From NCBI GenBank assembly GCA_030611085.1, contig JAUWQI010000015.1:1-35200 (forward strand): a DNA stretch of 35,200 nucleotides, in the 5' to 3' direction. Position 1 is the stretch's first letter. Every line of letters starts with the position of its first letter. The notes below the pieces were generated by a model, which saw only the letters and a list, made by a program, of their open reading frames with translations, was not told where the DNA came from and made no database searches. This document shows positions 8,602-29,938 of the stretch, one piece after another. A program made the position numbers and the translations under genes. Origin of the DNA: Dehalococcoidia bacterium. Its GTDB lineage: Bacteria > Chloroflexota > Dehalococcoidia > GIF9 > AB-539-J10.

Positions 8602-8947
8602 TAACTAATCTATGTTTTGTCAAGACTCATTAGAAATGTCCCCTCTCTAGTGACTTCATACAGGCCTGCTCCCCGAAAACAGGAAGTCTCTCATTGTAGA
8701 TGGTACTAATATTGGGGGCACCCCAGATGCTTAATTGGCTAAAGGGCATTCGCAGCATCTTCCCTCACGGCAGTAGTTTCTGAAGATATGAATCAGCCCT
8801 TGCTGCTGGCAAGCTCTTCATGAGTTTTCCACCCTTTCCATTGAGGCAGTCGCACCTTAAGGAAATGGTCAGAAAACAGGCCTCGGTTTTGAAACCATAA
8901 TCCTGACTCACCGGATAAGCCGGGGTTCTCTAGCAAGGTTTCAGGCA
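8602..8947. other. Gene-free stretch made partly of copied gene scraps
   Basis: No credible coding frame was seen. It contains the 89-base copy of the DUF2851 gene end (8726-8814) and an 18-base match to the M16 peptidase gene (8857-8874). The rest is unassigned. Confidence 0.55.
8726..8814. repeat. 89-base perfect copy of the DUF2851 gene 3' end
   Basis: Identical over 89 bases to 12373-12461 and in the same orientation. In the other copy it covers the last 84 bases of the DUF2851 coding region plus 5 bases past the stop. Here it has no upstream coding sequence. Confidence 0.9.
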
Positions 8948-12144: not shown

Positions 12145-12261
12145 GAAATCCTAAGCACGAAATGCTAAACAATATCGAAGCTCAAGATCTTAATGACCAA
12201 AATGTGAGAGTTTTGAATTTGATATTTGTTTAGGATTTAGACATTAGAATTTAGAGTTTAG
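12145..12261. repeat. AT-rich dispersed repeat (CTAAACAATATC...GATATTTGTTTAG family)
   Basis: Left half words CCTAAGCACGAAAT and CTAAACAATATC are roughly inverted in the right half as GATATTTGTTTAGGATTTAG. Related copies lie at 18311-18400, 23464-23672, 29335-29443 and 34202-34291, always between genes. Confidence 0.65.
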
Positions 12262-12297: not shown

Positions 12298-12377
12298 TTA
12301 TGCTCGCTGTGTTTGGTTCAGTCCAGAAGTGCTCGCTTTGCACCGATAACACAATTCTGGAGTTATCATAAGGATGC

Positions 12378-13859
12378 TTAATTGGCTAAAGGGCATTCGC
12401 AGCATCTTCCCTCACGGCAGTAGTTTCTGAAGATATGAATCAGCCCTTGCTGCTGGCAAGCGGTGAAATCAGCCATATCTTCAAGGCAAAGTTGCCTCGC
12501 CATATGACGCGTTATCTCATTCTCAGCCAGCTTGGGGTAATTGAGGTAAAGATAGAGAGCCTTTTCCTTTAGCTCCATATCCTCAGCTATTTCTCCCCAG
12601 GAGAAAGCAAACGGCAATACCACATTGACAATAATTTCGCCCACTTTACCCCGTCCTAGGAGAGCTGAATTTTGGGTATTTGCCCTAACATCAAAATCAA
12701 AGTGATTCCGCCAGTAGCCATCACCATCCACAATCAAAGCACTTTCCAGCACACGATGCCCCGCTATCAAAGACGCTTCCTTCACTAGCTGTAACACCCC
12801 TCTCAATAGTCCTCCCTTGTAATAGCATTGTAGAAGGTAGCTTAAAGCTACAATACGCCGCACCGGAGAATTATTGGGGTATATATGAGAAAAATTCCAA
12901 TCACTTTCCCTCATGGCTTTAGCTTCTTTACCCACAGACCGCCATACTTGCTCTAGCTCCCTTGTTTCCTCTGCCTGACAAAATTCTCTTCCTAATCGTT
13001 GAGAGGGCAATAGACCGGCTGTGCCCAATAACCACGCCTGCTTTAGAATTAAACTTCCTCCTGGCTCTACGCTCTCTATAAAATCGAGGGATACTCTGTA
13101 AGCAAGTTCTTCAAAGGGCTTCATGTTTTTGGAATAACCTGAAGCTCTCATCATGCTTTTCCAAAGCACCTGATTTGCTTCCTCTCGCTGTAACTCAACT
13201 TGGGAAATAGCCGCTTTTTGTCTGAACCGCTCTTCACCAGCGATATTCAACAAGTTCCACAAAGTTTGTAATTGCTTCGCTTCCCCTTCGCGAATAGATT
13301 CGATTCGCTCACTACATGGTTTACCCTGGGCGAGATTCTTCGGTCGCTTTGCTCCCTCAGAATGACAAGGAGCGAAGGACTCAGAACGACAGGAGGCGAA
13401 GGGCTCAGTGCTTCGGCTCACCGCAATGACATTGTGGTGCAGCATCTGGGAGCAAGGAAGCTGGCAGTAAGACATCAAATAAGCCTGGTGCTGTAGTTCC
13501 TTTGATAAACATAACAGCGGAACCAACTTGCCATTTTGCTTTAGGATAACCGAATCGCAATCATGCCAACCAACCACATGAAGAATCACATTATTATATT
13601 CCGCATTGCTATGATGGCTATGGCTATACCAATCGCTGGACTTAACATGAATTTCTACATCCCCTCTCTTTAAATTGGATTCATTCACAATAACCGCATC
13701 CCGAAAATCAGGACCACTATCACCATTAAGCCTGCCAGGATAAATTATCCTGATGCGTTCACCTTCTTCAGTGGTCAGCTCCTTTCCTAATAGCTGCTGC
13801 CACATTAAGGCTACCTGCCTTTCGGGAAGTTTTATCCGATTTCGTGTAATCACTGGCAC
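12378..13859 (-). CDS. DUF2851 family protein with a repeat-derived insertion
   Basis: The 493-residue protein has the DUF2851 start (KLPERQVALMWQQLLGKELT, YPGRLNGDSGPDFRDAVI, GDVEIHVKSSDWYSH) and the typical C-terminal CX2-rich end (NYCREGRCCECPLAN). The function is unknown. Residues about 144-197, between QLPCSQML and LWNLLNIAGEERF, are encoded by nested dispersed repeats (13271-13430). They include the peptides VIAVSRS and CHSEGAKRPKNLAQGK. Without them the length fits the usual 420-450 residues. The start is GTG 13859. It follows the XRE gene by 45 bases on the same strand. Its last 84 coding bases are duplicated at 8726-8814. Confidence 0.85.
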   Translation of the reverse strand: MPVITRNRIKLPERQVALMWQQLLGKELTTEEGERIRIIYPGRLNGDSGPDFRDAVIVNESNLKRGDVEIHVKSSDWYSHSHHSNAEYNNVILHVVGWHDCDSVILKQNGKLVPLLCLSKELQHQAYLMSYCQLPCSQMLHHNVIAVSRSTEPFASCRSESFAPCHSEGAKRPKNLAQGKPCSERIESIREGEAKQLQTLWNLLNIAGEERFRQKAAISQVELQREEANQVLWKSMMRASGYSKNMKPFEELAYRVSLDFIESVEPGGSLILKQAWLLGTAGLLPSQRLGREFCQAEETRELEQVWRSVGKEAKAMRESDWNFSHIYPNNSPVRRIVALSYLLQCYYKGGLLRGVLQLVKEASLIAGHRVLESALIVDGDGYWRNHFDFDVRANTQNSALLGRGKVGEIIVNVVLPFAFSWGEIAEDMELKEKALYLYLNYPKLAENEITRHMARQLCLEDMADFTACQQQGLIHIFRNYCREGRCCECPLAN

Positions 13860-18255: not shown

Positions 18256-18305
18256 GTGGTTGCCTAATTTATTGGGCAATAAAACCTGATGAATCAGGCA
18301 ACTAC
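18256..18305. repeat. Composite palindromic element, second copy
   Basis: Outer arms GTGGTTGCC and GGCAACTAC enclose TGCCTAATTTATTGGGCA and CCTGATGAATCAGG. Confidence 0.65.
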
Positions 18306-18310
18306 GTAGG

Positions 18311-18400
18311 GATAAATCCTAAACAATACCAAACCACTAATGACCAAAATTCAAAAGGGAAAAAGTTTTGATATTTGAATTTGGAATTTAGAATTTAAGG
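18311..18400. repeat. AT-rich dispersed repeat
   Basis: Contains CCTAAACAATACC, CACTAATGACCAAAATTCAA and TTTGATATTTGAATTTGG. Same family as 12145-12261. Confidence 0.6.
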
Positions 18401-21843: not shown

Positions 21844-21882
21844 ACCACCTTCACCCATCCGGCTACCAAAATAGCAGCTTCC

Positions 21883-21948
21883 CGTTTTCAGCTACCAGTT
21901 CTCAGCTATCAGTTTTCAGCCATCAGTTTTCAGCTATCAGTTTTCAGC
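21883..21948. repeat. 14-base tandem repeat AGTTTTCAGCTATC
   Basis: About 4.7 units of AGTTTTCAGCTATC with few mismatches, between the GGDEF and lysA-like genes. Related sequence forms the 3' end of the histidine kinase gene (20859-20900) and lies near 17648-17672. Confidence 0.85.
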
Positions 21949-21997
21949 TTAATTCTGACCACTGATTGCTGCCTGCTCTTTTTTATTGACTCCTTTT

Positions 21998-22029
21998 GTC
22001 ATTCTGAGCCCTACGGGCGAAGAATCTCA
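21998..22029. repeat. GTCATT-type dispersed repeat, intergenic copy
   Basis: GTCATTCTGAGCCCTACGGG followed by CGAAGAATCTCA. An intergenic member of the repeat family that is found inside five genes here. Confidence 0.8.
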
Positions 22030-23463: not shown

Positions 23464-23672
23464 TAAACTCTAAGCACGAAATTATGGCAAATTCTAAATC
23501 CGAAATCCTAAACCCTAAACAATATCAAAGCACTAATGACAAAAATTCAAAACAATTTGCCAAAGGTAAAAAAGGGGTGGAGAGGAGGAATTAAATAAGT
23601 TCATTTTGCCCAAAGGGCAAATTTGGTATTTGAATTTGTTTAGAATTTAGAGCTTTAGTATTAGGATTTTAT
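23464..23672. repeat. AT-rich dispersed repeat, long copy
   Basis: Fills most of the gap between lysA and holB. Words CTAAGCACGAAATT, CCTAAACCCTAAACAATATC and CACTAATGACAAAAATTCAA are followed by roughly inverted words TTTGAATTTGTTTAGAATTT. HolB translation starts directly at its right end. Confidence 0.65.
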
Positions 23673-25877: not shown

Positions 25878-27344
25878 TCAGGAATAGCGCTCTTGGGGAA
25901 TGTTAGTCCTCCGTCTAGGCTTTATATCGCCACGATAGTCCGGGGTGGTGATGTTAAACATTACACTTAGCCTCGGGTCTACCATTCGTGAACCAATCCG
26001 TGGCTCAACCTCATCAGGGGAAAGGCATGTGGTAACCACCGTTGGTAGCTTGGCATTATAGCGATAATTGATTAACTGATATAACTTTTCCTGAGCCCAG
26101 GGCGTAGCTGCTTGCTCGCCAAAATCATCGAGCACTAACACGGGGCTTGTTTTAATTTTCTCGAAAAACTCATCATAAGATATCTTGCTCTCGGGGCTGA
26201 AGGTAGAGCGTAAATGGTCAAGAAGATCAGTAACAACGACAAAAAAGACTGGCTCACCTTGCGCCCGGCGATAATTAGCAATAGCTGCTGCTAGATGAGT
26301 TTTGCCACACCCGTTAATACCTTGGAATATCAACCAGCCGTCTGGAGAATGAGCAAAATCCGATGCCAGCTTAAAAGCTTGCTGTAAGTTTTGCCGTTGC
26401 TCCAGGGAAAGATTTAATCGCTTGCAGTCAAAATTATCAAAGGTCATATTCCGTAATAACTCTAACTGTAAAGGAGATTGTTCCGCTTCCTCGTAGCTAA
26501 TAGGTGAAATCACACATACTTGACAAAATTCACTATCGCCTAGTTTGGCGCGTAGGCGTTCGTCAAGTTTTCCCAAAGGTACATCAGTGGTAATCACAGT
26601 TGCCAGCTTGGTGTTATAGCGATAATTGAAAAGCTGCTCTATTTTCTCTTTAGCCCAGGGAGTAGCACTTTCCGGAGTAAGGTCATCAAGCACCAGCAAA
26701 GGCACATTCTTTACTTGCTCAAACAGCTCATCATAAGTAATGTTGTTCGTGGGATTAAAAGCCGTGCGGAGATGGTCTAGAAGGTCAGCAACACTGATAT
26801 AAAATGCCGGCTCTCCTAAGTTAAGACGGTGATTGGCAATAGCACAGGATAAATGTGTTTTGCCACACCCGCTAGGACCAAGAAGCATAAGCCACCCACC
26901 AGGATTATCAGCAAAAGTTCTAGCGGCTTGGTAAACAGAAGCTAAATGTTTTTGAGATTCTTCGCGGAGTTTATCCTGAGTGAGATTCTTCGATTGCTTC
27001 GCTCCCTCAGAATGACGAGCAGGTTTTCCCAGGGGAGATAAATTGTCAAAGGTAAATCGGGATAAGGAACCAAGATTGCTATACTTCTCTAAATATCCTA
27101 ATTTCTCCTTTTGTAGGCGTCCTTGCCGACAACGACAAGGCACAACTCGGCTGAAATCAGGCTGCCCCGAATCTAGAAGAGGATGAACGAACCCCGCCCC
27201 CTTGCAAATAGGACAGATTTCACTTTCACCTTGATTCTCTCCCTCGTTGGGAGAGAGAGAGCTATCTTTTGACCAGGTGTCCGTATTTGCCCTTGATATA
27301 TTTGTCGGGGTCAATCTTTTTAGTACCTTTTCTATACTCTCCAC
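25878..27344 (-). CDS. DnaC/DnaI-like protein with two tandem AAA+ ATPase domains
   Basis: The GTG at 27344 is the preferred start (a TTG at 27386 opens the frame), giving 488 residues. A zinc-binding region comes first (CPIC at 44-47, CRC at 70-72). ATPase domain 1 has Walker A GPSGCGKTH (156-164) and Walker B VLDD (218-221). Domain 2 has QGINGCGKTH (341-350) and VLDD (404-407). The two domains are clearly related (AIAN..R...GEP.F, VADLLDHLR, YRYN.KL.TV..T), so they arose by internal duplication. DnaC/DnaI ATPases load DnaB, encoded two genes upstream. Repeat-derived peptides lie at about 26-40 (SPNEGENQGE) and 110-131 (HSEGAKQSKNLTQDK). Confidence 0.88.
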   Translation of the reverse strand: MESIEKVLKRLTPTNISRANTDTWSKDSSLSPNEGENQGESEICPICKGAGFVHPLLDSGQPDFSRVVPCRCRQGRLQKEKLGYLEKYSNLGSLSRFTFDNLSPLGKPARHSEGAKQSKNLTQDKLREESQKHLASVYQAARTFADNPGGWLMLLGPSGCGKTHLSCAIANHRLNLGEPAFYISVADLLDHLRTAFNPTNNITYDELFEQVKNVPLLVLDDLTPESATPWAKEKIEQLFNYRYNTKLATVITTDVPLGKLDERLRAKLGDSEFCQVCVISPISYEEAEQSPLQLELLRNMTFDNFDCKRLNLSLEQRQNLQQAFKLASDFAHSPDGWLIFQGINGCGKTHLAAAIANYRRAQGEPVFFVVVTDLLDHLRSTFSPESKISYDEFFEKIKTSPVLVLDDFGEQAATPWAQEKLYQLINYRYNAKLPTVVTTCLSPDEVEPRIGSRMVDPRLSVMFNITTPDYRGDIKPRRRTNIPQERYS

Positions 27345-27960
27345 TTTCTTTACCTTCGCTAGCCCACCTCTCAAGAATGCGCGCAATGTATTTCCAGCTC
27401 CGTTTGTTCATCATAACCGCTTCCTTAAAAGCTTCATCAATCCATTGAGGTGGATAAAGTTTCTCAGCCTCCTTAAGTTCCTCAGCAATCATCGGTGTTA
27501 TTATCCCTATGTTTTGCTCATAGAGGGCAAAGATATTTCCCTGATGGGATTGCTTCGCTTCCCCTTCGCTCCACTCAGGGCTTCGGCTCACCGCAATGAC
27601 ATTACTTTCAGCAACAGTTTCCTTATCCAATTCTGTGTTGATGAAATAAACCTCCTCAGACTTGCCTTCTATGGTTAAAGTTCCCTGTAAAATGGTGCCG
27701 TGTTCCATAGCTAAGCTTAAGGCATGATGAAATGCCCCTTCTTCCATCTCCATTGGAGCACTAAAGGACAATAATTCTCTATGTGTAACAAAGCGAGAGT
27801 ATCTTCGCTTATGATTAAGTAAGTAAAAGACATACAGCGTTACTTTGAGTTCAGCTATATCCTGAATTTTAGGCATTATGTGAGTAAAAAAGACTTCAGG
27901 CAGGGAAATGAACTCCGCCTTTCCTGAGTGAAGCAAGGACTCGCGCTGCCTATTCATCAT
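27262..27960 (-). CDS. DnaD-domain replication initiation protein
   Basis: The 232-residue protein resembles DnaD/DnaB-type primosome proteins. It has an N-terminal winged helix (FISLPEVFFTHIMPKIQDIA, LKVTLYVFYLLNHKRR) and the C-terminal DnaD domain ending in WIDEAFKEAVMMNKRSWKYI and ARILERW. It starts in a 4-base overlap with the dnaB stop and overlaps the DnaC-like gene by 83 bases, so all three are tightly coupled. Residues 120-140 (VIAVSRSPEW and SEGEAKQSH) are repeat-derived (27541-27603) and lie in the linker between the two domains. Confidence 0.87.
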   Translation of the reverse strand: MMNRQRESLLHSGKAEFISLPEVFFTHIMPKIQDIAELKVTLYVFYLLNHKRRYSRFVTHRELLSFSAPMEMEEGAFHHALSLAMEHGTILQGTLTIEGKSEEVYFINTELDKETVAESNVIAVSRSPEWSEGEAKQSHQGNIFALYEQNIGIITPMIAEELKEAEKLYPPQWIDEAFKEAVMMNKRSWKYIARILERWASEGKESGEYRKGTKKIDPDKYIKGKYGHLVKR

Positions 27961-29334: not shown

Positions 29335-29443
29335 CTAAAATCAAAAGTCAAAACTTAAAATGACAAGTCAAAATGCAAAACTCTTTATTTTCGCTCTGTA
29401 ATTTTGATTTTGTTTAGTATTTCGAATTTCGTGCTTAGAGTTT
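29335..29443. repeat. AT-rich dispersed repeat between rplI and dnaB
   Basis: Words TCAAAACTTAAAATGACAAG and CAAAATGCAAAAC on the left, TTTTGATTTTGTTTAGTATT and CGAATTTCGTGCTTAGAG on the right. Same family as 12145-12261. Confidence 0.6.
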
Positions 29444-29464
29444 ACCCCTATTTATTGCTTCCCT

Positions 29465-29938
29465 TTACTTATTTTCCTGTTCAACGATTACTCTAATTCG
29501 TGACTTAATATCTTTAGCTAACTTAACGATTACTTCATAATTGCCCGCCTGGCGTAAAGGCTTATCCATATCTATGTTTTTCTTATCTATGAGATTCTTC
29601 GCTTCCGGCTCGGAACGACATATGATTTGACTTAGCTCCTCAGCTATATCAGCAGCAGTAATAGAGCCGAATAAGCGGTCTTCAACGCCGATGCGAGCCT
29701 GAAGGTGAATTTCAGTGCCTTCAATTTGCTTAGCTAGCTCAACTAGCTTAGCTTGGTCAACAAACTCCAAAGCCCTTTTCTTCTCAATCCTTGATTCCGC
29801 TTCTTTTATAGTTGCTGGTGTAGCCACTAAAGCTAAACCTTGAGGTAATAGAAAATTCTTGGCATAACCTTGAGACACCTCCATTACCTCACCAACCTCC
29901 CCTTTCCCAGAAATATCCTTCAATAAAATGACTTTCAT
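29465..29938 (-). CDS. rplI: Ribosomal protein bL9 with a repeat-derived insertion
   Basis: The ATG at 29938 is chosen because AAAGGAG precedes it and the protein then begins [20 protein letters not shown], the exact bL9 start (an open frame extends to 30004). [13 protein letters not shown] and the C-terminal domain [14 protein letters not shown]...IDKKNIDM confirm it. The length is 157 residues, where 147-150 is usual. The extra residues are at about 107-116 ([10 protein letters not shown]), encoded by a GTCATT-family repeat at 29591-29619 that lies in the C-terminal domain. bL9 binds 23S rRNA and supports fidelity of frame and translocation. Confidence 0.95.

Follow-up and report, generated by a model that had tools for sequence, protein, structure and literature searches.

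An in-frame, repeat-derived insert in the ribosomal protein bL9 of a Dehalococcoidia bacterium

The invasion of reading frames by palindromic repeats is best known from the obligate intracellular Rickettsia and Wolbachia, and in-frame REP/RPE insertions have been described in these genera and in other bacteria (PMC3733652, PMC2229807, PMC3767692). The CGTC-tagged REP superfamily, in which the unpaired tag at one end reads CGTC, TGTC or CCTC, includes RPE-4 and RPE-6 of Rickettsia conorii, and its repeats have been reported from five phyla, Chloroflexota not being among them (PMC3733652). Different RPE types can occupy one site in orthologues, ATGAC is frequent in the repeats, and biotin ligase is a target shared by the elements of Rickettsia and Wolbachia (PMC3767692). 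In the literature, no report of the CGTC REP superfamily in Chloroflexota was found, nor a description of such a repeat in Chloroflexi or Dehalococcoidia, nor a bL9 case of the Rickettsia palindromic elements (PMC3767692, PMC3733652). The repeat described here and its peptides gave unrelated primer-type matches only.

The window (the whole stretch of DNA that was analysed, 35,200 nucleotides) carries rplI, which encodes the ribosomal protein bL9 (Table 1). The protein passes the cut-off for both Pfam domains, PF01281 (Ribosomal_L9_N) and PF03948 (Ribosomal_L9_C), the gene is present in single copy, being the sole bL9 match in the genome, and the order of a trxB-like gene, rplI and dnaB is conserved. 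In a preliminary description, residues 107-116 of this 157-residue protein were proposed to be encoded by a dispersed repeat. The proposal is borne out, as these ten codons form one complete 30-nt unit, TGTCGTTCCGAGCCGGAAGCGAAGAATCTC, in frame and without counterpart in relatives. The extra residues are therefore best explained, with high probability, as one copy of a small non-autonomous CGTC-like hairpin REP inserted in rplI.

Table 1. Coordinates of rplI, of repeat units and of the genes that carry them in the window.
Feature	Position	Strand	Support
rplI, bL9, 157 aa	29465..29938 including stop (coding 29468-29938)	minus	PF01281 and PF03948, gene order
REP unit in rplI, codons 107-116	29591-29620	minus	26/30 to a genomic copy; absent from 58 other bL9
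DUF2851 gene with REP unit	12378..13859	minus	PF11013, E=6e-63
REP unit in the DUF2851 gene, in frame (CHSEGAKRPKNL)	13332..13367	minus	PF11013 matched in two stretches
DnaC-like double-AAA ATPase gene with REP modules	25878..27386	minus	NF005992 and PF01695
REP unit and adjoining module, in frame, in the DnaC/IstB-like tandem ATPase gene	26954..27017	minus	NF005992 and PF01695
Stem-perfect REP unit upstream of lysA	21997..22028	plus	outside conserved domain
AT-rich repeat copies	12146-12181, 18300-18335, 23465-23531, 29401-29446	both orientations	

The 1.16-Mb genome contains 93 copies of the motif GAGATTCTTCG, which ends the rplI unit, and the same motif written backwards gives 0 and 1 matches on the two strands. 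A complete unit consists of TGTC, a 5-nt arm, GA, an inner stem with its loop, GA, the complementary 5-nt arm and CTC. The stem is thus laid out as 5 bp, GA/GA and 2-4 bp, with a 3-nt loop in the predicted folds. When both arms were left free at two positions, the variable stem positions were fully complementary in 85 of 89 units, against 67.7 expected with independent arms. RNA folding returns the same hairpin for the genomic stem types. The folding energies of single units are unexceptional, so that the argument for a hairpin is carried by covariation and not by energy. A wider scan, which covered 275 kb of stretches from this genome (overlaps are counted twice in this figure), detected 103 units in which the 5-bp outer stem is perfect, against 0 in two controls, and five outer stem types were seen (ATTCT, ACCCT, ATTGC, ACTCT and ATCCT). 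The tag of the stem-perfect units is TGTC in 100 and CGTC in 3, under a pattern that itself requires C or T followed by GTC; a search with the right arm alone, which is independent of the tag, also recovers units whose 5' end is usually TGTC. Pairs within 100 bp are head-to-head in 20 cases, tandem (head-to-tail) in 1 and tail-to-tail in 0.

The distribution of the repeat in the class is patchy (97 of 245 genomes), and the present genome has the most copies within its family. In a plasmid collection, similar units of 26-31 nt were found on only a few cyanobacterial and alphaproteobacterial plasmids. No match to PF01797, the RAYT/Y1 tyrosine transposase, was found in the 83% complete genome. 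With no candidate transposase found, we infer the movement of the repeat from its distribution, and transposition would be by an enzyme acting in trans. An exact unit was also observed in 82 stretches of contigs classed as viral in IMG/VR (L182-L261), which are too few and too scattered to point to a viral vehicle.

Several characters are shared with the described CGTC REPs, namely an unpaired CGTC/TGTC tag at one end, a short unpaired 3-nt tail, a stem that begins with AT in most units here, complementary stem variants, a predominance of head-to-head pairs, the lack of a dedicated transposase and intragenic in-frame units (PMC3733652). However, CGTC-1 to CGTC-4 have stems of 8-9 bp, loops of 4-5 nt and CCA-like tails (PMC3733652), whereas the present units have the interrupted stem and the 3-nt predicted loop given above and a CTC tail. 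Since stem and loop lengths differ and Chloroflexota is not among the reported phyla, the repeat is termed a CGTC-like variant and is not assigned to a named family. The likeness to RPE-4, RPE-6 and RPE-7 lies in the in-frame position within conserved genes, including those of DNA polymerase, a tRNA synthetase and biotin ligase, and with the RPEs are further shared an ATGAC/GTCAT motif, solvent-exposed positions and recurrent or diverging inserts at one orthologue site (PMC3767692, PMC3733652). BirA, the biotin ligase, is targeted in this genome as in Rickettsia and Wolbachia (PMC3767692). Unlike these three elements, the present repeat belongs to a different phylum, and the insert in bL9 consists of one 30-nt unit. 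RPE-1 and other coding MITEs are likewise non-autonomous, have some frames open and occur as in-frame fusions in conserved proteins, but they are about 100-150 bp long and have terminal inverted repeats (PMC2229807). The GTAG-type REPs that go with RAYT transposases are also short palindromes with intragenic copies, but the tag here is TGTC and no Y1 transposase was found in the genome (PMC3733652).

For the bL9 segment, the best identity to 71 other 30-mers from genomic copies is 26/30, whereas 21/30 was the most that any 30-mer reached in the controls, which comprised 200 codon shuffles of this gene and 76 further bL9 genes; this rules out chance. The ten repeat codons occupy the place of three in sister genera (for example GGT TCC TCC in L023). 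The ten repeat-encoded residues announced in the preliminary description are thus present, but the net gain relative to the relatives is seven residues and not ten. Nine nucleotides of host sequence are absent at the insertion site, so the insertion was not clean, and a deletion or replacement has to be postulated as a separate event. Full-length bL9 of the same family has 7 residues fewer over the matched span, and a search of the phylum gave mostly the same 7-residue difference among the matches listed. In an alignment of 59 distinct sequences, of the kind proposed earlier, the insert is absent from all 58 others, and nearly all of them have a loop that is shorter by 7 residues.

The usual bL9 has a short turn between AEELSxxI and IDKKxI. 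The compared span has 8 residues in 60 of 64 sequences (rows L264 and L265 being left out of this count), 7 in two, 13 in L266 and 15 here. It could be argued that the loop grew by ordinary indels and that its resemblance to the repeat is coincidental. Natural growth at this site does occur, as in L266 (G366, from an unrelated genus of the class) the loop at the same position is longer by five residues of unrelated sequence, ASAAVPDSS. This is an independent lengthening, and it indicates that the site is permissive, though a loop that is naturally long across Chloroflexota, which had been named beforehand as the finding that would speak against a repeat origin, was not encountered. A coincidence would have to account for 26/30 over a complete unit, when 276 controls reach at most 21/30, and for the use in bL9 of the same frame as in most other repeat-bearing genes, and it is extremely improbable.

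The bL9 gene is not alone in carrying the repeat. A survey in which 91 anchored copies were viewed in sequence context showed that in this genome at least 18 conserved genes, bL9 and at least 17 others, contain units in frame. The interior targets are bL9, a DnaC-like ATPase, DUF2851, CarA, PyrK, HypF, TruA, DNA polymerase I, BirA, TilS, FtsY, HisG, HisC, MtaB (two sites), a radical SAM protein, FolC, a GlmM-like mutase and ProS. The remaining units are intergenic, precede the starts of genes (lysA, CoA-transferases, Nudix, aldolase) or fall at the C-terminus of CMP kinase; in the stop-to-stop frame of lysA, the unit falls at residues 51-62 and the domain runs from residue 109. Comparison with the orthologues of eight relatives confirmed the HisC insert, an insertion of about 37 aa in TruA and one of up to about 42 aa in ProS, and PolA, BirA and most of the others were called insertions from their place inside conserved domains. 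The ProS loop holds VILSEAKNL in G001 and other modules at the same place in G007, G008 and G040. In the HisC loop, G001, G003 and G020 have peptides of the CHSERSEES type, and the present genome has a longer composite. Either such a shared site is a hot spot that was hit repeatedly, or an old insertion expanded there.

Some neighbouring observations concern the repeat-bearing genes themselves. The DnaC/IstB-like ATPase has two tandem AAA domains (internal repeat 26269-26358 and 26827-26916) and stands beside dnaB in relatives too. A HisG-like ORF of 526 aa (L099:761-2338, G000 contig C17) contains two HisG stretches with a REP composite between them, and may be a tandem duplication whose halves were joined across the repeat. 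In a sister genus, REP-derived peptides were seen at 1050-aa open frames in G001 (contig C100, about 5147) and G003 (contig C45, about 2047), one of which has stops in the matched frame; in-gene units are therefore probably not confined to this species.

The bL9 insert is known from one genome only, a draft of 1.16 Mb that is 83% complete. An assembly or binning artefact is thus to be weighed, since short repeats can create chimeras in an incomplete draft. Yet the bL9 copy differs from every other copy found (best 26/30), it is in frame, bL9 is intact on both sides and the gene order is conserved, and similar in-frame inserts recur in many genes here and, in sister genera, at the sites in proS and hisC. 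Given a diverged copy and many parallel cases, an assembly error is unlikely, and an artefact of either kind is judged highly improbable. The insert is repeat-derived, in frame, absent in relatives and one of many parallel cases.

Structure prediction of the 157-residue protein, which had been suggested as a check, kept the bL9 fold. The AlphaFold model has a mean pLDDT of 83.8, and the top Foldseek matches are bL9 structures (1div, TM 0.82 and 0.86). The insert appears in the model as a small extra helix (111-116) and sits in the stretch of lowest confidence, with a mean pLDDT of 74 for residues 101-110 and 69 for residues 111-120. E. coli without L9 grows and has been studied (PMC4399890). 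The dispensability of bL9 in E. coli fits with tolerance of the insert. The preliminary description had regarded an expansion inside a core ribosomal protein as unusual. The insertion itself stands, but it is not peculiar to bL9, given the other genes affected, and "core" overstates the constraint.

The most likely reading is that the repeat is a selfish element, which a peripheral protein tolerates at a turn exposed to solvent. A unit would have inserted at the turn between a helix and the next strand of the C-terminal domain of bL9, where it would stand for three codons and add seven residues net. Because the frame used has no stop codon, the gene would stay open and the peptide become a surface loop, and the insertion would be tolerated because the turn is exposed and permissive in length and bL9 is peripheral. 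After insertion, the palindrome would decay and the reading frame remain open. In rplI, the outer stem is without pairing and the family hairpin is not adopted (RNA folding; DNA parameters); the bL9 hairpin is decayed and the reading frame is kept open. The insert-bearing bL9 is presumably translated and incorporated into the ribosome, and the inserted peptide is presumably neutral, without benefit.

An alternative is that the peptide was co-opted and is selected for a changed bL9 function or ribosome contacts. The decayed hairpin and open frame would suit such a role, and so would the choice of frame among the in-gene sites. The CHSE...KNL frame accounts for about 15 of 20 sites, whereas 5 would be expected with four equally used open frames (binomial tail 4e-6; a by-eye count that mixes nested modules and is indicative only), though this bias may only reflect tolerance of hydrophilic peptides. 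The peptide is found in no relative, so that selection on it is unmeasurable, and co-option is considered quite improbable.

With at least 18 cases, one of them ribosomal, in a small Dehalococcoidia genome, the phenomenon is extended to Chloroflexota. The proS and hisC genes offer a natural series, in which one loop is empty in some related genera and bears a short or a long insert in others, so that insertion, expansion and decay can be followed step by step. It is possible, if somewhat doubtful, that CGTC-like REPs in Dehalococcoidia keep rewriting conserved proteins, a ribosomal protein included, in that units enter in frame at permissive loops, more units nest or accumulate there, the hairpin decays and the peptide stays, which would make them a general and continuing source of variation in protein length among bacteria outside the Rickettsiales. 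Annotators should be aware that peptides like CHSEGAKRPKNL and VILSEAKNL, which recur, derive from the repeat.

Other repeats were observed in the window. Two identical 89-nt direct repeats (8726-8814 and 12373-12461), 3.6 kb apart, bracket several ORFs, the second lying at the 3' end of the DUF2851 gene, and they may mark a recent duplication or transposition. A second dispersed repeat, AT-rich (AAACTCTAAGCACGAAATTC...CCTAAACAATATCAAAGC), is intergenic and present in both orientations (Table 1). Upstream of lysA, a 14-bp unit (CAGCTATCAGTTTT) is found in four head-to-tail copies at 21875-21944.
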